From contig SUWK01000018.1 in NCBI GenBank assembly GCA_015061525.1, positions 1 to 40,865 on the forward strand: DNA of 40,865 bases. Direction: 5' to 3'. Below the pieces are notes generated by a model. It had not been told where the DNA came from and did no database searches. It worked only from the letters and a program-made list of their open reading frames with translations. The stretch is from Lentisphaerota bacterium (GTDB lineage Bacteria; Verrucomicrobiota; Lentisphaeria; Victivallales; Victivallaceae). Within the stretch, counting starts at the first letter, position 1; the number at the start of each line of letters is the position of its first letter. This document shows positions 4,879 to 35,605 of the stretch, piece by piece. The position numbers were made by a program, and so were the translations under genes.

Positions 4879-5646
4879 TTATTTGTAGGTGTTCTGATTG
4901 CCTGCGGCATCAAGAACTACTACTTCATAAGGACCGCCATTGCACTTTTCCGCAATCGGCACAAATTCCGGTGCGGTCAAACCGACAGCATGACCATCCC
5001 AGAAAGCGGTGTTCGCCACTTTGCCGTGAATAGTTTTAATATTACCTCTTGAGTTGTTCACAGTATTCCAATTCCAGGCGGTAGCCATACTGTTGGGAGT
5101 GCCTTTGTCAGCGCAAGTACTACTGGAGGCGAAGCCGGTATCAACCAGAGTCAGAGAGGAGGACGGTGAGGGAATCTTTTTCAGCACCACAAAATGATTC
5201 GTACTGTCGTAAAAAAATGCACCTGTAGGAACAGTATACGGCTGAATGCCGAATGAACCGTACATATTGTAGTGACTGAGACCGCCGGCACTGGCTGGCA
5301 AGTAATCTGTCGAGGGGCAGATGTAGTGGTCAGGAGCAGTAGTCGGATTCCCGGGGATAGTACCCCAACCAGTCATTGTTTCGGCTCCAGTTGTCGGTGT
5401 TGAAGCATAAACCCGTCCCCAGCGATGATTGCCGATCACGGACGGCATCACATCGTCACTGCCCTCAGCGTACATTAAAAATGCCATGCAATTCTGTTTT
5501 AGATTATTAAGGCAACTGGCTGCACGGCCTCTCTCACGCGCACTGTTAAGTGCTGGCAGCAGAATTGCTGCCAGAATGGCAATAATTGCAATAACGACGA
5601 GCAATTCAATGAGAGTAAAGTGATTTTTTTTCTGCGATGAATCCAT
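4879..5646 (-). CDS. Pseudopilin, DUF1559-type
   Basis: A 255-residue protein with AAAGGAG 8 nt before its ATG. A nine-residue leader (MDSSQKKNH) precedes F10 of the N-methylated helix [16 protein letters not shown], followed by the conserved [10 protein letters not shown] and NNLKQ segments and a C-terminal FWDGHAVG motif. The family is type IV pilin-like, processed by prepilin peptidase and placed in the inner membrane or in a pseudopilus. The residue before the cleavage point is His, not the usual Gly. Unlike the other two pseudopilins here, its leader codons carry no palindromes. It heads the operon with the sialidase-like gene. Its role in sugar use is inferred from this pairing only. 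Confidence 0.85.
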
Positions 5647-11187: not shown

Positions 11188-14100
11188 TCAATCACGCAAC
11201 GAATACGGCGGCGCACCGTTGCGCCGTTTGACAACGGCACTCATCAGTGCTTCCATATTCTCCTGCACTCTCTTGTCAAGAGCCTCAATTTCCGGAAGAA
11301 CTTTGGCAGCATCGCCGCCGTTATCCAGATAATCGGTAAGACGGTTGACATCGCGGAAGTCGTCGATGACCTTCTCTTTCAATTGTTGGAACGCAGTATC
11401 CGGATCATCAACATAACGGCTCCACTTGGCAGTTTTTTCATACATTTCCGGGGTGATGATGAACTCCACATTCTGCACCAGTTCAAAATCTTTCTGTCCC
11501 AGGTAACTGCGCATACCGGAAATCAGTTTCCACGCTTTGCCAAGCGGAGCAGCAGCGATCCGTTCATTCAGTACGGCAAACTCTTTATTCAAAGCCGCCA
11601 GAGCCTGACGTCCGGGAAGTTTGTCGAATTTCCACGGATCAATGACCGCAATGCCATTTCCGGCAGCGCGTTTGGCAGCAACCAGATAACGGGCAGCTTC
11701 ACGGTTGTAACGGCCTTTGTGAACCGCATCAATTTCGGCTTCATCCTTACCAAGATACAAATAAACAGCTCCGCCCGGGGCAAGTGTCCGGGTGATCTTT
11801 TTCCCCTCAAGTTCTTTGAGCGCAGTCAGATCCCAGCCTTCCTGCGGCAGAGAGATAACCGCTTTTTCCGCGGCATTGGGGTTTTGATTGACCGCGACGA
11901 TGATCGTACCTTTGGGAGATTTTAATGCGTAAAGCTTTACGGCCGCTCCGGTATAAAAGCCGTTGGGGTCAGTGAAGTTTCTGCATTCTACCGCACAACC
12001 GCCGGGAAGTTCCGCCGGACGGCTCTTGAGCAGCAGCATACCGGTACCTGCCATTTCCCGGAAACCGTCAACGATCGCCTCCCAGCCGGGACCGGGCATT
12101 GCAGAGGCATTCAACGGAGTTTGCCGTAAGTGGAAATACTTTTTCACCCACTGCCAGCCGGTATTGGTAAAGCCATACCAATGGATACCGCGAACACCGG
12201 CAGCTATCGCCAGATTGAACATCAAGCGGATCTCACCATCTGTCGGATAAGCGTAAATATCATATTTTCTCGGTTCACCGGCATTGAATACCTGCGGCAT
12301 GAACCAGACCGGTTTTTCTCCGGCGCGTTTGACCTTGTCGGCAAATTCCGGGTAAACACTCCACGGATTTGCTCCGGAAGAGCTTTTGCGTTTTACAGGA
12401 TAAAAGTCCGCATAATAGATCGGCATATACGGCATCAATTCAACTGTGGAAGAATTGAGGATGGTAAAGATCACAGCACCTTGGGGCATGATTTTTCTCA
12501 GCGCATCATTAGCGGCAAGCACCACGTCGATATTGGCGGGCAGCGGTTCATCACCGGTATTGATAGAGAGCAGCCGGTCGCCGTAAGTGTGGACAAATTT
12601 CTGCAAATTGGGAGCTTCCCAGACTTTGAGGATCTCCGGCAGACGTTTTTTATACGCCTCTACATCAGTATCTTTACGATGGTACATCATCCTGCCCAGA
12701 CCAAACGCCATCCGGTGCTTACGGATAAATTCACCGAATTCATGTTTGCCGTCAGGAGTTTTGAAAAATTCTTTGTGCGATCCATCCATGACCAGATGCA
12801 CTCCACCGACACTGGTGGCATAACTGTCAGTGAACACCCGGGTAAGACGCATGGCAGTGGGACGGAACATTTTATAAAATCCCGGACTCACCTCCATACC
12901 GGCGGTTTCCGGTTCAATCAGATTGCAAAGTGAAGCTCCGCAGGGGAAAAACTCTTCACAGATCGGCGGCAGCGGCTCACCGGCAGGCGGCGGGGGCATT
13001 TCGATCGGTTTGATCTCTTCCACGCGAACGTTGTTCTTCTTCGCGACCTCATCAAGATAGATATCTTTCTGACCGCTCAATACCTTAACTGCGGCATCCG
13101 TTTTCCAAACTTCACCGGGCTGGAGGGTAAAAGGACGGTAATACCACTCCATCGTGGCAAACGCCGGAACCAGATAGTTGTATGCCCGGACACTCTTTTT
13201 GATATCGTAGGTAAACAGCAGCGTCGTACCGGCATCTTTATAAAAACGCGCCATCCATCCGGCACGCAGAAGATCATTGATAATGGAATTCAAGCCGTTG
13301 AGCGGTTTGCCGTCCTGATGAAAGACCTGGATCCAATCCGGTGTCGGCCAGGTGAAACTGCCGTTGGCAGAAGAAATAAAACTCTGCATACGGCAGTTGA
13401 CCTCCATCGGATTTTTGCTCTTGTTGCGGAACTCGATCGCAACTTTTATCTCGGTACTGTTATCAGGCAATTCGTAAGTCCGGACGGCCTCAAGTCCGGC
13501 AAATTTACCGGCATCGATCGTCTGAACGACTTCGATTTTTTTATTCGGAACCAGCACTGTCGCTTTGGACTGCGCAAAACGCAACTGACCGGGAGTACGG
13601 TTGCCGGGAACAATAAAGGTGAACATACCGCCATTATCACCAATCAGATTCGGGCGGGAAAAATCCATTTTATTTCCAGCGATCTTCAGAGAATCAATAC
13701 CCCCGCCGATGCGAGGATTGATAACTGCTTTGATTTTGCCGTTATCCAACACAGTTCCGCCGGAAATCCGGCATTTGACGGCATCAAAATCAACTTCTCC
13801 GACAGAGGCGATGATCTCCAGACTCAACTCAAATGCGGTAACACCGGCAGGAACCACCACATTGGTATCAAATCTCTGCCATTTTTCAACAGCATTGCGG
13901 CTGTCAAGAAAATAGTTTTTAAGTTTTTTACCATCTTTGTCATACCAGAAAATGCGGATATAGGCTTTACCCTTGCCGCGGATCATGGCATCAACATAGA
14001 TCCGGTCTCCGGGTTTCACCGCCGGTTTGACTTCACTGCGCAAAGAAGCGATCGCTTTTTTGTCACCGCAGATAAGACGGACGGCACGGAAACCGTCAAA

Positions 14101-14805
14101 TGCACCATCAGTAACAATTTTGCAGTAAGATTTGGCATTCGGGTGAGCATATCCCTCCCAGCCTTTTGCCGGATAGTGCCGCCAGTTGCGGTTGCTGATC
14201 TTATCGGCAGGCACTTCAAAACTGCCGTTCGCCGGAAAACCCGCATCGGCCGCCGCAATCGTTTCAGCTTTGACGATATTGCAGTCAACAGCATCAAATT
14301 CCACTTCAACCGGAACATTGATCGCCTCAAAACTGACTACAAAACTCTCGGCTCCGTCAGGAACTTTTGCCGTCACTTCAAAATTTTTCCAATCTTTATC
14401 GGCGTATTTTCCCGCCATGAAATACTTTTTCTGCATTTTGCCGTCTTTATCATACCAGCAAATGCGGATATGGCATTTACCTTTGCCGCGGATCATGGCA
14501 CTGGCATACACCTGATCGCCGGGAGCAGCGGGAATGCGTTTTTCGTTGCGGACAGTTGCCATACCTTTATTGTTTTTGGAGATCATCTTCACCGCGCGTT
14601 TACCATCAAATGCGCCCTGTTCCACGATCTCAAACGTGCTGTTTTCATTGGCGAGGTAGATTTCCCAGCCTTTCGCCGGATAGTGCCGCCAGGTACGGTC
14701 ACTTTTCTTTACCGGCAACTCTTCAAAACTGCCGTTTTCAAACAAAGCCGCCGACAGTGACAACGCCGTTGCCGAAGCAAATAATAGTGTCAAAAATTTT
14801 TTCAT
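11188..14805 (-). CDS. Giant secreted glycosidase-like protein with tandem binding modules
   Basis: A 1205-residue protein, AAAAGG 8 nt before the ATG. A signal peptide (MKKFLTLLFASATALSLSAA) is followed by two tandem CBM4/9-like sandwiches (about 22-178 and 190-346) that share HYPAKGWE, MIRGKGK and IRI(C/F)WYDKDGK; the duplication is also clear in DNA at a 507-bp offset. Residues about 355-600 form a mutarotase-like sandwich (VINPRIGGGIDSLKI). Residues about 630-960 look like a TIM barrel with LSINTGDEPLPANID (possible acid residue Glu) and GVRGIHWYGF. The C-terminal 200 residues are helical. It probably cleaves an external or periplasmic polysaccharide. No GH family can be assigned with confidence. 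Last gene of a three-gene operon. Confidence 0.75.
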   Translation of the reverse strand: MKKFLTLLFASATALSLSAALFENGSFEELPVKKSDRTWRHYPAKGWEIYLANENSTFEIVEQGAFDGKRAVKMISKNNKGMATVRNEKRIPAAPGDQVYASAMIRGKGKCHIRICWYDKDGKMQKKYFMAGKYADKDWKNFEVTAKVPDGAESFVVSFEAINVPVEVEFDAVDCNIVKAETIAAADAGFPANGSFEVPADKISNRNWRHYPAKGWEGYAHPNAKSYCKIVTDGAFDGFRAVRLICGDKKAIASLRSEVKPAVKPGDRIYVDAMIRGKGKAYIRIFWYDKDGKKLKNYFLDSRNAVEKWQRFDTNVVVPAGVTAFELSLEIIASVGEVDFDAVKCRISGGTVLDNGKIKAVINPRIGGGIDSLKIAGNKMDFSRPNLIGDNGGMFTFIVPGNRTPGQLRFAQSKATVLVPNKKIEVVQTIDAGKFAGLEAVRTYELPDNSTEIKVAIEFRNKSKNPMEVNCRMQSFISSANGSFTWPTPDWIQVFHQDGKPLNGLNSIINDLLRAGWMARFYKDAGTTLLFTYDIKKSVRAYNYLVPAFATMEWYYRPFTLQPGEVWKTDAAVKVLSGQKDIYLDEVAKKNNVRVEEIKPIEMPPPPAGEPLPPICEEFFPCGASLCNLIEPETAGMEVSPGFYKMFRPTAMRLTRVFTDSYATSVGGVHLVMDGSHKEFFKTPDGKHEFGEFIRKHRMAFGLGRMMYHRKDTDVEAYKKRLPEILKVWEAPNLQKFVHTYGDRLLSINTGDEPLPANIDVVLAANDALRKIMPQGAVIFTILNSSTVELMPYMPIYYADFYPVKRKSSSGANPWSVYPEFADKVKRAGEKPVWFMPQVFNAGEPRKYDIYAYPTDGEIRLMFNLAIAAGVRGIHWYGFTNTGWQWVKKYFHLRQTPLNASAMPGPGWEAIVDGFREMAGTGMLLLKSRPAELPGGCAVECRNFTDPNGFYTGAAVKLYALKSPKGTIIVAVNQNPNAAEKAVISLPQEGWDLTALKELEGKKITRTLAPGGAVYLYLGKDEAEIDAVHKGRYNREAARYLVAAKRAAGNGIAVIDPWKFDKLPGRQALAALNKEFAVLNERIAAAPLGKAWKLISGMRSYLGQKDFELVQNVEFIITPEMYEKTAKWSRYVDDPDTAFQQLKEKVIDDFRDVNRLTDYLDNGGDAAKVLPEIEALDKRVQENMEALMSAVVKRRNGAPPYSLRD

Positions 14806-14823: not shown

Positions 14824-15642
14824 TTACAAAGTCGGTTCGGTGACAAATCTCAAATTGCTGGCAGTAGTAATATCCCACATATTCAACCCGCCGGAATGAC
14901 CGCTGTGATAATATTTGTCAGTATTCTGAACTGATCCGTCAAGGAAAGCAGCATTCATATTTTTGCCATGCGCACCGGCAGAACCGACATTGGCATGCTT
15001 GTAACTCCACAATACTTCGACAGCATTGACACCGTTACCTTCTTTACCGGCCATTGCGGGGAATGAATAGATTCTCCACTTATCCCCGAATACCATGGTT
15101 TGGGCAGTATAATTACCGGATTTGCCAAGTTTCAAAAGCTGGGTGTATCCATCTTTAGTTGAATCATATCCGGTATACGTACCGGCTGAAAGTGCCATAT
15201 TCAGACCATAAGACAGTGCCAGATCAAAATTACTCCACCGCCGACAGGTGGGAGTGTTGCTGGGACAGCCGAGAACTGCTTCTGCGGGCGCGCCGCCGCC
15301 GTTTTTGTATTTATTGCCATCGTAAGTATTCATAAGATAAGATCCGGCCATCACCTCATACCACATAAGCTGGGTACCATTGAGATTGGGAGACGGCGCC
15401 TTGAACGGCAGCAGGTTATCATCATTATCCTGAGCATACATGTTCCAATAGAGAGAAAGCTGCTTGAGGTTATTTATGCAGCTGGCACTTCGTCCGCGTT
15501 CACGGGCACTGTTCAAAGCGGGCAATAAAATCGCCGCCAGAATCGCGATGATCGCGATAACCACGAGAAGTTCAATTAAAGTAAAGCTGGCCAGCTTTAC
15601 TTTCCTGCAGCAGGAAAGTTGATTTTTCAGAGACCTTTTCAT
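14824..15642 (-). CDS. Pseudopilin, DUF1559-type, with palindromic leader
   Basis: A 272-residue protein with AAAAGGAG 8 nt before its ATG. A 19-residue leader (ending KVKLAS) precedes F20 of [16 protein letters not shown], then [15 protein letters not shown] and a C-terminal AFLDGSVQN. The cleavage-site residue is Ser rather than Gly. The leader contains two Cys. Codons 8-22 consist of two overlapping palindromes (15578-15619). It lies between the TIM-barrel-like gene (37 nt) and the giant glycosidase-like gene (18 nt), so all three are made together. Likely an inner-membrane/pseudopilus protein; a role in presenting or secreting the neighbouring enzyme is inference. Confidence 0.85.
15578..15619 (-). 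other. Two overlapping palindromes in pseudopilin leader codons
   Basis: A perfect 26-nt palindrome (15578-15603, centre GCTGGCCAGC) covers codons 14-22 including FTL. A second one (15599-15607 with 15611-15619, arms ACTTTCCTG/CAGGAAAGT, centre 3 nt) covers codons 8-15. They share ACTTT at 15599-15603, so the two hairpins compete for the same bases in the mRNA. Confidence 0.85.
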
Positions 15643-28400: not shown

Positions 28401-29204
28401 ATGTCTAATTTACTCTCACAGGTGAGAGTAAACCGCATGCGGTTTACTTTGATCGAACTTCTGGTCGTCATCGCCATCATCGCCATTCTGGCAGCGATAT
28501 TGCTTCCTGCTCTTAATTCCGCAAGAGAGCGCGGCAGAACCGCCAGCTGTATCAACAATCTCAAACAGCTCGGTCTGGCAAGCAGCAACTATTCAATGGA
28601 TTACACCACCTTTGTTCCGATGGGCGGATCATTCGGATTTGGTGATGCTGGAAACATGAAGTATGCTCCGGCATATCTCTATTTGAAACACGGTTATCTG
28701 CCCGGTAATGTATGGACTTGCGATTCTGTAACTGAAGTTACGAATCAGTTTCTGATTCCGAACACAGCCCCCAGTTCCACAAACTGGCTCTGGTGGTATC
28801 CGCATTACGGTTACAATGTGGTCGGTGTCGGTCACGACTGGAGCGGTCTTTACTCAACTGCGGGTACAACGACGAATTACAATGAACTTTCTCCGTTGAT
28901 CCCCGGTACGGAGAAATCAGCTTCATCGCTTATCCTGTTTGCAGACTCCGCACGTACCACCACGAACCCGAATTACGGAACAATGTTTGCGGTTGATGTA
29001 AGCCTTACCTCTCTTACCGGATCCCGCGGCTACATCCGTGACCGCCACAACAACAAATCTGCCAATATCGTCTTCGTTGACGGTCATGCAGAAAACGTGG
29101 TCGATCCCATCCGGTATCAGGAAACCGGCGGTAACCTCAACTCCACCAAGCACTTTGACACGCTTGGACACAAACACTATTGCCGCGGCGGAGCTGAAGG
29201 ATAA
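28401..29204 (+). CDS. Pseudopilin, DUF1559-type, with palindromic leader
   Basis: 267 residues, GGAG 7 nt before the ATG. A 14-residue leader ([14 protein letters not shown]) precedes F15 of [16 protein letters not shown], then [15 protein letters not shown] and a C-terminal [10 protein letters not shown]. The cleavage-site residue is Arg. Codons 4-16 consist of two overlapping palindromes, as in the pseudopilin at 14824. It is the first gene of a five-gene operon with a secreted propeller-like protein, an aldolase, the 1473-aa GH42-like protein and a DUF4434-like protein. Membrane/pseudopilus location is family knowledge; its partner role is inference. Confidence 0.87.
28411..28448 (+). other. 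Two overlapping palindromes in pseudopilin leader codons
   Basis: TACTCTCAC-AG-GTGAGAGTA (28411-28430) overlaps by AGTA a perfect 22-nt palindrome (28427-28448, centre ACCGCATGCGGT) that ends in the FTL codons; a G-U and an A-U pair can extend it to 26 nt. Only one hairpin can form fully at a time. Same arrangement as at 15578-15619. Confidence 0.85.
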
Positions 29205-31183: not shown

Positions 31184-34100
31184 ATGAAAAAAAGTTTTCT
31201 ACTCATGACTATGCTGTTCACAGCAATGGTCTGCAGTGCCGCCACCGTCACGGTGCGGCAGAACGCCCTGCCCGGTGCAGCAGATGATCCCGGCATGTAT
31301 CAACCGGAAAAAATCACCTGTCCGGATGATCTCAAATCCGCCGGAACTCTCAACATCTGGGTAAAACCGGAGAAATGGGATGCCGCTGATAAGGGTGTTT
31401 ACTGCGTTGCCGATGCCGGAAACCGCAACGGAGTTCCCGGTTTTGAAATATACCGCAACAGCAACAACACTCTCAGAGTACTGCTTTTCAACGATGCAAG
31501 AAAAAATGCGATCGGCGATATCACAGTAAAAGGCGATGCCATCGTCCCCGGTCAGTGGAACATGTTGACTTTAGGCTGGAAAGATAACGGTAAAAGCACC
31601 ATTATCAATTTCTATATCAATGGCAAAAAAGCCGGTCAACGCTGGGTCAATTTTGTCTGGAATCCGGCGGCACAGGCAAAAGTATGGAATTTGAACAACT
31701 CCCCCGCATGGGCAAAACAGCGTACCAAATTCAAAGTCGCTCTTGGTAAATCGACAGTTTATTCCCGCGAATTGTCTGCCGATGAAATCGAAGTTCTTGC
31801 CAAAGAAAAATATTCCGCCGACAAAGCCGATGCCCCGCAAGACGGCACTGTAACCTTGCGTGACAACGTGCTTCCCGGAACCGGTATCAACGAAAAACTT
31901 TACGCTCCGTCAAAAATATATCCCGATGCCGATTTCGGCAACGCCGGAACTTTTTCCGTCTGGGTCTACACTGATAAATGGAACAATGCCGACAAAGGCA
32001 TTTACTACATCGTCAACGGCGGCACCCGGGGAAAAACTCCCGGATTTGAATTGCAGCGCAACCCGGACAACTCCCTCCGGCTGCTCTGGTTCCGCGATGT
32101 GGCAAAAAAGCAGATAAGCGACATCATATTCAAAAATGTTCCCTTCGCACCGGGCAAGTGGACCCATATCGCATTCACCTGGAAAACCAACAGCAAAACC
32201 GGCATGCTCAAACTCTACGTTGACGGTCACTACGCCGGTGAACGCTGGCTTAATTTTGCATGGAGCAAAGATGATGTTCCGAAACTCTGGCACATCAATA
32301 ACTCCCCGGACTGGGCAAAAAAACGCAGCAAATTCCGTCTGGCAACCGGCAAAACCGTGCTGATTCCCCGGGAATTGTCCCCGGAAGAGATCAGTATTCT
32401 TGCCAAAGAAAAATTTTTACAGGGAGCAAGAGCCTACAGTGAACGGAATTTCCTTCCATACACCACCGGAAACCGGATCACCGGACAACTGGCGGCTCCT
32501 GTAAAAAATGCAGTAATGCTGGTTGAGTTCGCAGATGAGCTTGACCGTATCACCGAAAAAGAAATACCGCTTGCTGTTGATGCAAACGGTATTTTTGATC
32601 TTGACCTGACAATGGATGATGATACCCATACCGTCATGTTCACACTCAAAGATAAAAACGGCAAACTCCCCCCTTGGCGCATCCGCAAAATCGTTCACGA
32701 TTCCGGTATGCCGCCGATCGAAAAAAACTACTGGCAGGCATACTGGCTGCGTACCGCCACCATCCGTACTCCGGAACAGGGCAGATTCATGGGCGGCACA
32801 TGGTACTTTGCCAAAGAGTTCGACCTTGACCTGTCACAAGTTGCCAAAGCCGGCTGTCAGTACATAGGCTCAAATAACGGTACAGCTTACATCAATGGTC
32901 ACGATTTGGGACGCACTTACGGCTGGACAACTCCGAAAGCTGTTGCTGATGTGCTGCCGTATCTGCGTAACGGCAAAAACGTTTTCGGCGGCGATGCCTA
33001 TATCCCCCACGACAGTTCCACCTGGATGGGTGAATTGACTCTGGTAATGAAAGACGGCTCCGTGCGTTACATCGCTTCCGATGCCACGTGGCGTTACTCT
33101 GATGTTAAAGTCGAGGGCTGGGGCAAACCCGAATTCGATCACTCAAAATGGAATTTTGCCCTGGCCTACATGCGCCCGCCCCAGCGGCCCTACGGCGAAA
33201 CCCGCTATACCAACTTTTCCCCGGTTCCCGCAGTTGCTCCGGAAGCGATCAATATTGCCGGAGTTGCCGGCAGCAGTGTAAATGTGAAATTCACCGCTCC
33301 GCTTGCAAAAAATGAACCGGATGCCAAAGTCTGGCTCAAACTTTTCCGCAATGGTTCTGAATTTTACCGGATGCCGCTGAATTTGAGCTGGGCAGACGGC
33401 AAATTGACCATGCAAGGCGATCTGGTGATCCCGTCAACCGCGATGAGTGCCGATTATGAATTAGCTCTGGAAAGCCGGGATATGACCTTCCCGGAAAAAG
33501 TCGGAACTTTGAAAATTTCCGGCAATCCGCAAGTTAAACCACTGACCGCTGAAGTAAAAAAAGTCAAAGGGACTCCGACTCTTTTTATCAACGGCAAAGC
33601 TGCCCCGCTGCTCCTGCAGCGCTGCGCGATCAACTTCCGCAACAGCACCATCACCTACCGTTATATGACCGGGTTTGACAAATCCGGAGTCAAACTGGCA
33701 GAAATCAATCTTAATTTCAGCCGTCTCTGGAAACCGGATAATACTCTGGATACCGAATATCTCGATCACTTTCTGCAGTCCGCGCTCTTTTACGCGCCCA
33801 ATAACAACCTGATTCTCTTCTTCCAGACAGATGCCCCCAAATGGTATGTCAAGAAGTATCCGGAAGAGGGCTTTGTTTCCAATGAAGGTCCCAAACCGTA
33901 CATCTCCTACGCTTCACAGAAATATCGTAAAGATTCCGCAGAATTTCTCGCAAAGATCCTTGAATACGTCAAGACCCGCCCCTACTATCACCAGATCGCC
34001 GGTTTCGGTCTGGATGGCGGCGATGACGGACAATTCATGCAGTGGGCGGGCCGCGGCATCCTCTATGTCGGCGACTATGGTCAGGCTATGAAAAATTATT

Positions 34101-35605
34101 TCCATGACAGCCTCCGCAAAAAATACGGCACCATCGCCAAACTCAATGCCGAATGGGAACGCGCTTACAAAGATTTCAGCGAAATCGAAATTCCCTCTGT
34201 GGAACGCCGGAAAGGTACTCTGGAAAAAGTATTCCTCCATCCGGTCAAAGATGCCGATGTGGTGGAATTCACCCGCGCTTACTCCGCCTGTGTCGTCGAT
34301 CTGATCAGCGATTATGCGGCTGTGATCAAAAAAGCCACTGAACGTAAACGCATCGTGGCGGCATATTACGGTAAATTTTTCTCCATCGCCGGTATTCTGC
34401 AATGGGCAGAACTGGATATTGAACGTGTCCTGCGCAACCCGGATTTTGATTACCTGATCGCGGTGGATTACAAACAGCGTCCTATCGGCAAACCTCACGA
34501 AGTCAGCGCACCGCTTGCCTCATACCGTCTGCACAACAAAATTTTTGTGGATGAAGCAGACTGCCGCACGTTCCTTACCGGTTCAAAAGATTGGGAAACC
34601 GCCAAAACATTGTTTGAATTTGCCTCTCAAGGCAGAAAGATGTTTATTTTAAGCTGGGTGCGCGGTCATGGCATGCACTGGTACGATCTCCACGGCGGTG
34701 TCTTTGAAAACACCGGTCTGCTGCGTACCGTTGAAACCATCCAGAAAATCGCCGAAGCCGCTCCCGCAAGAGAAGTTCCAAAAGCTGAAATAGCCGTGTT
34801 TGTAGACGAGAAAAGCTTCCTTCACACCACTTACACCAGGCGCGGTCTGAATGCCAGCCGGCAAGGATCTGCATTTCTCCGCATGGGAACCACTCTTGAC
34901 CGTTATTTCCTCAATGATCTGCTCCATCCGGATCTCCCGGAATACAAAATGTATGTATTCATGACCGCATGGGCTCCGACAGCGGAACAGCGTCAGGCGA
35001 TCGAAAAACTCAAACGCGACGGCAAATTGCTGGTATTCCTCCACAATACCGGATACATTGACGGCAAAACCATCGGCGTGGACAATGTTTCCCGCCTGAC
35101 CGGTATCCAAATGGCAGACAGCGGCAACATCAATCTGGCAATGCGTTACAACCCGGGTGAGCTGCCGGAAGTTTTCAAAAAAGTCAAAGATCCGGTCTTT
35201 GCAAGCGTCGGCAAAGTTGAACATGCCGCAGTTCCGGTGGATAAAAATGCCAAAATTTTCGGTTCATTCCTCTTTGACCAAAAACATAAACCGATGGCTT
35301 ACCGTGATTTCGGTAATTGGAAAAGCTTCTACAGTGCCGTTTCCCTGCTGCCGCTGGATCTGTGGCGGGAACTTGCACGCAAAGCCGGAGTGCATTTCTA
35401 TGTGGATAATGATCCTGACTGCATGGTCTATGTCGGCAGCGATCTGGTCGGTATCCACTCCGGCAAAGGCGGTAAAAAAGTGTTGAATTTCCCTGCCGCC
35501 TATACTTTCATTGATGCAGTCAGCGGTAAAACGCTTGCAGAAAAAACCAAAAAACCGGCATTTGATATTTTGCCGGGAGAAACCAAAATAATCCGGATAA
35601 AATAA
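31184..35605 (+). CDS. Secreted LamG/GH42-like glycosidase, two LamG domains
   Basis: 1473 residues, AAGGA 7 nt before the ATG. Signal peptide (MKKSFLLMTMLFTAMVCSAA), two tandem LamG-like sandwiches (about 23-210 and 222-415; both with (N/S)(I/V)WV and (L/I)NNSP(A/D)WAK), a galactose-binding-like domain (AYINGHDLGRT, about 568), a GH42-like barrel with KKYGTIAKLNAEW (about 980), and a trimerisation-like domain (WAPTAEQRQAIEKLKRDGKL). As in the paralogue at 24374, the strand GLDGGDDGQFMQW lacks the usual GH42 Glu, while FVDEADCRT keeps one. The second LamG domain is the main difference from the paralogue. Predicted to act on an extracellular polysaccharide. Confidence 0.8.
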   Translation: MKKSFLLMTMLFTAMVCSAATVTVRQNALPGAADDPGMYQPEKITCPDDLKSAGTLNIWVKPEKWDAADKGVYCVADAGNRNGVPGFEIYRNSNNTLRVLLFNDARKNAIGDITVKGDAIVPGQWNMLTLGWKDNGKSTIINFYINGKKAGQRWVNFVWNPAAQAKVWNLNNSPAWAKQRTKFKVALGKSTVYSRELSADEIEVLAKEKYSADKADAPQDGTVTLRDNVLPGTGINEKLYAPSKIYPDADFGNAGTFSVWVYTDKWNNADKGIYYIVNGGTRGKTPGFELQRNPDNSLRLLWFRDVAKKQISDIIFKNVPFAPGKWTHIAFTWKTNSKTGMLKLYVDGHYAGERWLNFAWSKDDVPKLWHINNSPDWAKKRSKFRLATGKTVLIPRELSPEEISILAKEKFLQGARAYSERNFLPYTTGNRITGQLAAPVKNAVMLVEFADELDRITEKEIPLAVDANGIFDLDLTMDDDTHTVMFTLKDKNGKLPPWRIRKIVHDSGMPPIEKNYWQAYWLRTATIRTPEQGRFMGGTWYFAKEFDLDLSQVAKAGCQYIGSNNGTAYINGHDLGRTYGWTTPKAVADVLPYLRNGKNVFGGDAYIPHDSSTWMGELTLVMKDGSVRYIASDATWRYSDVKVEGWGKPEFDHSKWNFALAYMRPPQRPYGETRYTNFSPVPAVAPEAINIAGVAGSSVNVKFTAPLAKNEPDAKVWLKLFRNGSEFYRMPLNLSWADGKLTMQGDLVIPSTAMSADYELALESRDMTFPEKVGTLKISGNPQVKPLTAEVKKVKGTPTLFINGKAAPLLLQRCAINFRNSTITYRYMTGFDKSGVKLAEINLNFSRLWKPDNTLDTEYLDHFLQSALFYAPNNNLILFFQTDAPKWYVKKYPEEGFVSNEGPKPYISYASQKYRKDSAEFLAKILEYVKTRPYYHQIAGFGLDGGDDGQFMQWAGRGILYVGDYGQAMKNYFHDSLRKKYGTIAKLNAEWERAYKDFSEIEIPSVERRKGTLEKVFLHPVKDADVVEFTRAYSACVVDLISDYAAVIKKATERKRIVAAYYGKFFSIAGILQWAELDIERVLRNPDFDYLIAVDYKQRPIGKPHEVSAPLASYRLHNKIFVDEADCRTFLTGSKDWETAKTLFEFASQGRKMFILSWVRGHGMHWYDLHGGVFENTGLLRTVETIQKIAEAAPAREVPKAEIAVFVDEKSFLHTTYTRRGLNASRQGSAFLRMGTTLDRYFLNDLLHPDLPEYKMYVFMTAWAPTAEQRQAIEKLKRDGKLLVFLHNTGYIDGKTIGVDNVSRLTGIQMADSGNINLAMRYNPGELPEVFKKVKDPVFASVGKVEHAAVPVDKNAKIFGSFLFDQKHKPMAYRDFGNWKSFYSAVSLLPLDLWRELARKAGVHFYVDNDPDCMVYVGSDLVGIHSGKGGKKVLNFPAAYTFIDAVSGKTLAEKTKKPAFDILPGETKIIRIK

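Follow-up and report, generated by a model that had tools for sequence, protein, structure and literature searches.

Two overlapping palindromes written into the leader codons of a pseudopilin gene raise the question of what they serve and whether they act in the mRNA or in the DNA itself. We have followed this question from a window of 40,865 nucleotides (the whole stretch of DNA analysed), which belongs to the 2.83-Mb MAG of a Lentisphaerota bacterium (G000) in which the prepilin N-terminal motif is matched 133 times at E ≤ 1, several of these matches falling in some genes. Three pseudopilin genes of the window are considered here. Gene 1 (14824..15642, minus strand) and gene 2 (28401..29204, plus strand) each carry a single copy of the palindromic module described below and are ON, i.e. 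a start codon (ATG in gene 1) lies in frame with the pilin, as judged from the ORF, the Pfam matches and the frame; gene 3 (4879..5646, minus strand; ORF and Pfam) is without a module and serves as the comparison gene. By Pfam cut-off genes 1 and 2 are DUF1559 pseudopilins (SBP_bac_10 / N_methyl): gene 1 matches PF07596 (DUF1559) with 27.0 bits and PF07963 with 25.2 bits, both above the cut-off, and gene 2 matches PF07596 with 38.8 bits (above the cut-off) and PF07963 with 20.5 bits, just below the required 21.2. Gene 3 reaches just 20.7 bits for PF07963, against the same 21.2. Directly 3′ of gene 1, and judging from spacing and strand probably in one operon with it, lies the gene of a 1205-aa protein with a carbohydrate-binding domain (PF02018, 27.5 bits; 11188..14805, minus strand). 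Gene 2 is followed on its 3′ side by the gene of a 1473-aa protein (31184..35605, plus strand, the same as gene 2) with a laminin-G-like domain (PF13385, 98.4 bits) and a glycoside hydrolase 42 domain (PF02449, 43.2 bits).

In gene 1 positions 15578-15603 (minus strand) form a perfect 26-nt palindrome, AAAGTAAAGCTGGCCAGCTTTACTTT, the 3′ arm of which is the TTT-ACT-TT of the Phe-Thr-Leu codons (hairpin 2), and positions 15599-15619 (minus strand), ACTTTCCTGCaGCAGGAAAGT, form hairpin 1 with 10-bp arms flanking one base; the two share 5 nt. In gene 2 hairpin 1 (28409-28432, plus strand; TTTACTCTCAC ag GTGAGAGTAAA) has 11-bp arms and a 2-nt loop, and hairpin 2 (28427-28448, plus strand; AGTAAACCGCATGCGGTTTACT) is a perfect 22-nt palindrome with its 3′ arm within the Phe-Thr codons; here 6 nt are shared. 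These are exactly the four hairpins with a stem of at least 10 and a loop of at most 4 in the whole window. The sequence-only reading had reported the overlapping, mutually exclusive palindromes of gene 1 at 15578-15619, with the perfect 26-nt palindrome and the 5-nt overlap, just as we find them, the arms of the second palindrome being 10 bp long and not 9 bp as it had them; the pair in gene 2 is likewise real, its start lying at 28409 and not at 28411. The observation is thereby confirmed, and it is more general than thought; the preferred reading, as set out below, moves from RNA to DNA.

Together the two overlapping palindromes make up a single copy of a DNA module of ~34 nt, A-P-A′-X-A, located in the leaders of many pseudopilin genes of this genus. 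The last A consists of TTYAC and the start of a Leu codon, i.e. it encodes Phe-Thr(-Leu) of the mature helix; A′ is the reverse complement of A and pairs with either A, hairpin 1 being A-P-A′ and hairpin 2 A′-X-A; P and X are short palindromes of free sequence. X is 10 nt long in 127 of 142 modules, part of the set having been selected for X = 10. The residue before the prepilin cleavage site is usually Gly; in leaders bearing the unit it is set by the last X codon and is often Cys, Arg or Ser. The counts of 142 and 133 modules used here refer to a set which mixes loci of three genomes (G000, G004 and G031), loci found by BLAST with the window gene, and loci from a scan for the pattern GTRAA-N10-TTYAC. 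The three genomes contribute 71 modules with both hairpins, or 63 when the pattern-scan loci are set aside, and the BLAST-derived loci are 40 stretches out of ~150 places, at least nine pseudopilin places of G031 lying outside this sample. The pattern scan, which by its design requires GTRAA-N10-TTYAC, returned at least 113 stretches, 80 of them listed with titles; 17 modules of a group labelled "other" come from 33 stretches without titles. Left out of the module set were 39 listed stretches, 34 from other or unnamed phyla and five Lentisphaerota records without a module (L191, L200, L242, L245 and L257).

That the structure and not the sequence is kept, as had been proposed, is borne out by covariation. 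Over 13 stem pairs in 62 distinct modules with X = 10 from three genomes the covariation score is 0.498, compared with 0.181 for shuffles and at most 0.178 for slid alignments; the modules were preselected for the hairpin, so that the percentage of paired positions is inflated. The wobble base of the Phe codon is paired without exception (A-T 34, G-C 28), and positions in the Thr and Leu codons covary too. Hence synonymous codon choice in the pilin helix tracks the upstream arm, or both travel together. Inner stem pairs, with the outermost pair left out, are G.U in 8 of 640 cases, or in 15 of 710 when the selection tolerated G.U (1-2%). Among inner pairs that are not Watson-Crick, which are few, G.U has a share of 27-35%, against a naive one sixth, and 25 of the 62 modules have G.U as their outermost pair, the G of that pair presumably being held by hairpin 1; because of these two figures some selection at the RNA level may act as well.

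The same design with other bases, already noted for gene 2, is also seen in genomes of the same genus. A perfect stem of at least 9 bp through the Phe-Thr codons occurs in 20 of the 87 usable pseudopilin leaders of the window's genome (87 of 98 ORFs; those dropped had a short upstream stretch, an N, or no ELLV or ELLL), and codon-shuffled leaders gave a mean of 0.075 such stems with a maximum of 1 in 200 rounds. Two outcomes had been named beforehand as counting against the palindromes; the first, that most family members lack them, is what we see (67 of the 87 leaders), and the second, that shuffled controls give them as often, is not. In same-genus genomes a stem of at least 7 was present at 36 of the 61 FTLIE sites read first, a BLAST-selected sample which includes two sites from the window's genome, both ends of an artefact contig, and a small number of sites from other families of the order, these last having no stem.

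Several properties of the module went unmentioned in the sequence-only reading: it holds an inherent direct repeat, in other genes it stands twice in tandem, periods that are multiples of three are all but absent, and a second copy puts the gene out of frame. The pairing of A′ with the A on either side makes the two A copies, with which the module starts and ends, direct repeats of each other. "Competing hairpins" are thus equivalent to a unit filled with hairpins and flanked by direct repeats, which is a known slippage substrate. The period U, taken as twice the distance between the palindrome centres, is 37 nt in gene 1 (15586..15622, minus strand, 5′ of the Phe codon; residual direct repeat ACTTT, read by eye) and 34 nt in gene 2 (28409..28442, plus strand; TTTACT at either end), in both cases 1 mod 3. 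In 114 single-copy modules the direct repeat at offset U has a mean length of 4.7 nt (1-9), as against 1.7 at other offsets.

Over 133 modules U takes the values 31 (2 modules), 32 (4), 33 (1), 34 (106), 35 (7), 37 (4), 38 (7) and 40 (2), and it is divisible by three in a single case, L368, with U = 33. Among modules with U other than 34 this is 1 of 27 (binomial P 2.6e-4), and after related sequences had been merged by eye ~1 of 20 (P 0.003); in G000, G004 and G031, with modules from outside the pattern scan, it is 1 of 63 overall and 1 of 19 of those that are not 34. The test for divisibility rests on ~20 independent cases, because the excess of U = 34 could be due to inheritance. A neutral or harmful process should best tolerate periods divisible by three; nothing else hints as strongly as their near-absence that frame switching is selected for.

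Tandem doubling of the module was found in 18 of 133 genes. A start could be recognised in 16 of these 18; in every one of the 16 it is out of frame with FTLIELL, and taking away one copy would restore the frame. For the remaining 2 of 18 no start was found. Single-copy genes with a start number 103; the script scored 99 of them in frame, and three more (L046, L364 and L374) are ON by a good in-frame start, giving 102 of 103, with L238 as the sole one out of frame. Among 175 leaders of G000, G004 and G031, sorted by eye, 27 lack a near in-frame start: 10 are doubled genes, 15 end in cassette sequence, one is an unrelated ORF and one a contig-end artefact; for the 15 cassette-ending leaders any start would lie farther upstream than the range of the script. 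No gene that is ON with two copies, none with three copies and none that is OFF by lacking the module was found among the 133 module genes and 175 leaders. The bodies of the doubled genes are intact, 17 of 18 reaching the stop after 218-349 aa and one running off its stretch, and dN/dS in ON/OFF ortholog pairs is 0.06 and 0.13, the third pair being saturated. An in-frame downstream GTG or ATG, in each case lacking a Shine-Dalgarno match, is found in some doubled genes, from which some translation might occur. We also considered start codons inside X (MCFTLIE, MRFTLIE); they are present in some genes and are not general.

Comparison of orthologs shows the same elements changing between close relatives. 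G004 and G031 (the genome of L216) share 21 reciprocal pseudopilin pairs, 12 of them with bodies at least 85% identical. Among these 12 the module is identical in one pair and differs by one base of the centre in another; copy number differs in two pairs, five have P and/or X changed with the pairing kept (e.g. core CGGTGCACCG versus CAGTCAACTG, X GGCTCAAGCC versus GCACGTGTGC), two have the module in one partner and a quite different leader in the other, and one is without modules. In one instance the module is single in G031 and double in G004, with a body 92.7-93.9% identical; single and double copies also face each other in L342/L378 (97.0%) and in L310/L313 (66%, orthology less sure). All three pairs differing in copy number are compared at the level of consensus, between MAGs of different species-level genomes.

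Nearly all sequences used are MAGs, and what we report on anatomy, covariation, frame arithmetic and doubling holds at the level of the assembly consensus. This matters for the doubling, since wrong assembly of a locus that truly has one copy would likewise yield a doubled gene that is OFF and that one copy would turn ON. In 12 of the 18 doubled genes at least one palindrome is imperfect over 22 nt, mostly with an asymmetric centre repeated in the same orientation; such centres exclude a strand flip in the assembly graph (k ≥ 21) as the full explanation for these 12 and leave it for the other 6. That palindromes can mislead assemblers is evident at the contig end of L176, a clear inverted-repeat artefact. 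Gaps of 100 N in the examined stretches of G000 (three: C24, C33 and C72, at L061, L089 and L033) and of G011 (one: C5, at L163:1018) each lie between two copies of one module, which at L163 is upstream of a pseudopilin, away from its Phe-Thr codons; the gap at L138, in a genome farther removed, is not enclosed by two module copies. The 100-N gaps are likely the assembly scar of tandem modules that could not be resolved, which supports the doubling and does not prove it.

The leaders are also occupied by other cassettes. Of 98 pseudopilin-type ORFs of G000, 30 contain two to four in-frame copies of FTLIELLV separated by repeated cassettes, examples being L015 (C85:8898-9566), L055 (C21:75983-76486), L072 (C55:13775-14248) and L073 (C93:68541-69158). 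The copies lie 108-342 nt apart, with 22 of 36 spacings equal to 180, 183 or 231, and each cassette ends in its own FTLIELLV, by which the mature pilin is rebuilt. Two main types are found in this genome, stacked and often at contig ends. A third, shorter cassette (L088, L225, L230, L246 and L353), found in other MAGs as well, terminates on the right in a palindrome module, which is doubled in L353. The 231-nt cassettes (e.g. L086, L402:8898) likewise end in a hairpin with pilin codons: their final codons, GATCAGCG, just ahead of FTLIE, match the Thr-Leu-Ile codons, CGCTGATC, as reverse complement.

The reading that we prefer, and hold to be true with slightly better than even chances, is that hairpin-assisted slippage between the A copies changes the number of modules and that these act as a multi-locus phase-variation system, one copy meaning ON and two copies OFF. 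During replication the palindromic interior P-A′-X would fold into hairpins, the nascent strand would slip between the A copies, and one module would be gained or lost; with one copy the start codon would be in frame with FTLIELL and with two copies out of frame. According to the available text of PMC4134008, replicative polymerases slip in vitro where a hairpin is combined with short direct repeats, and in that of PMC13334657 E. coli is described as removing inverted triplications by slippage. The direct repeats of single-copy modules are short (1-9 nt), so copy gain may be slow; the switch would run in both directions. P and X would be free to drift, since nothing would matter beyond their self-complementarity and a period other than a multiple of three, and compensatory changes might be speeded by template switching between the arms. 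Many pseudopilins would thus be switched independently and stochastically, perhaps with polar effects on the genes behind; the pseudopilins putatively switched in the window precede glycan-binding or glycan-degrading proteins. The wider proposal, put forward tentatively and as somewhat short of an even chance, is that in this genus of uncultured gut Lentisphaerota some 20-30 pseudopilins per genome each have their own diverged module of this 1-ON/2-OFF kind, that cells consequently would differ in their subset of pseudopilins and perhaps of secreted glycan-degrading enzymes, and that modules and leaders are exchanged among genes.

An unlikely alternative, yet the best of those considered, is that the module is a mobile or exchangeable palindromic element tolerated in the peptide that is cleaved off, its structure serving its own spread and not the host gene. 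The sequence-only reading had named both an in-frame palindromic element and an exchange of leaders among pseudopilins, and in part these ideas stand: bodies of orthologs are 87-99% identical and the leaders sometimes quite different, with wholesale replacement in L336/L198 (body 98.8%) and L346/L219 (body 87%). Exchange thus appears to occur, maybe as a second consequence of the module. That other in-frame cassettes occupy the same leaders also fits such an element. The pattern GTRAA-N10-TTYAC has 55 places in the window's genome (reversed control 23), and at 26 of the best 50 of the 55 the spacer is largely self-complementary; pseudopilin leaders hold 23 of these, contig ends two and another gene one. 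Confinement of 23 of 26 to pseudopilin leaders speaks against an element spreading for itself; in favour of one is the place in the other gene, a complete module (C7:4364, at L115) in the signal-peptide region of a large exported protein that is not a pilin, with a period of 34 by eye. Relatives of this protein in G000 include proteins near pseudopilins on C97 and C24, and a test for filled and empty sites on its gene gave no informative pair, the matches being just 26-29% identical and present in 3 of 18 other genomes. A single Y1-transposase match in G000 (PF01797, 34.8 bits, above the cut-off) agrees with mobility; against it, the match is absent from 11 of 18 genus mates, including the module-rich G004 and G011 (for the Y1 family, the one searched), and mobility of the RAYT/IS200 type was set aside on these counts. 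A mobile palindrome explains the place of the module and the turnover of leaders, not the periods, as a selfish element gains nothing by avoiding those divisible by three. In the pattern scan of named genomes the 80 listed stretches contain 84 matches, of which 32 have at least four of five spacer pairs self-complementary; all 32 are from records titled Lentisphaerae or Lentisphaeria and, where a title names the source, from the gut of sheep, yak or roe deer. The listed matches from other phyla are background, their spacers being mostly unpaired.

Less probable still is a mutational by-product, in which repeated template switching at palindromes would generate functionless modules and the doubled genes would be broken or mis-assembled. 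A-A′-A with spacers indeed has the DUP/INV/DUP design of small inverted triplications, which the available text of PMC13334657 describes as unstable by slippage, and the artefact at L176 and the six doublings that a graph error could produce lean the same way. Against a by-product of this kind are the strong concentration in pseudopilin leaders described above (23 of 26, from the best 50 of 55 places), the near-absence of periods divisible by three, the intact bodies of the doubled genes, and a 400-kb sample in which no overlapping hairpin pair was found, though ~3 modules of any kind were expected there, a loose bound.

The mRNA switch or pause suggested earlier, in which two exclusive hairpins would govern initiation or pausing during synthesis of the pilin helix, we regard as improbable and do not prefer: its location directly after the start codon, the covarying stems, folds that exclude each other by construction, and the share of G.U among the few inner mismatches suit it, but the inner stems are almost entirely Watson-Crick, with G.U as rare as given above, the folding of the two window leaders is modest as RNA (z −1.3 and −2.3) and more extreme as ssDNA (z −2.7 and −4.1), and neither the avoidance of periods divisible by three nor the doubling is predicted by it, which together lower an RNA hairpin as the main function.

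If slippage between A copies does switch these genes, phase variation would have a form that uses two overlapping DNA palindromes as its repeat unit and works with just one or two copies, and repeat finders that seek long arrays would miss such switches. In a phylum that has received little study, pseudopilins would then be under combinatorial ON/OFF control, which would suggest a reason for keeping dozens of pilin-like genes. Annotation and short-read assembly would be predicted to misread such genes, as N gaps and apparent frameshifts.

In the literature searched, outside which lie most subscription journals and bioRxiv preprints, no such module is described, and the systems nearest to it each share a part of the design. 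REP/BIME palindromes with their RAYT transposases are, in the accounts available, likewise short palindromes in many places per genome, sometimes arrayed; they are extragenic and conserved in sequence, whereas the module is intragenic and variable, in a genome with one Y1 match. The Rickettsia palindromic elements, as far as the available text of PMC10969869 goes, are also palindromic DNA in frame within coding sequence, but measure ~150 bp, belong to defined sequence families and lie in unrelated host genes. The module is ~34 nt long, of free sequence, nearly confined to one gene family, and breaks the frame as tandem copies; the combination of conserved sequence and unrelated genes is not seen in it, P and X varying freely and pseudopilin leaders accounting for nearly all of the listed palindromic places. 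Small inverted triplications (DUP/INV/DUP), as presented in the available text of PMC13334657, share A, inverted A′, A and spacers, as well as slippage over hairpins, and have median sizes of 148/160/148 bp in rad27 mutant yeast and in tumours. The module has the corresponding direct repeat and A′.A pairing; its arms are ~5-15 bp, in contrast, and within one bacterial genus it occupies a constant site in a gene family. Tandem repeats in promoters of M. tuberculosis resemble it in their long units (e.g. 58 bp) and in copy number varying within populations; they differ in their promoter location and proposed role in tuning expression, the available text of PMC12817950 describing neither a palindromic design nor frame switching for them and naming slippage at simple repeats as a route to phase variation. 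In logic the module resembles contingency loci with slipped-strand mispairing, where the repeat number shifts the frame near the start of a surface-protein gene and the period is not divisible by three: here too the period avoids multiples of three (132 of 133), copy number differs between orthologs, and copy number sets the frame of the start. The tracts known for phase variation mostly consist of short units repeated many times, whereas the unit described here is ~34 nt long, is built from two overlapping palindromes, is present in one or two copies and has bases specific to each gene.
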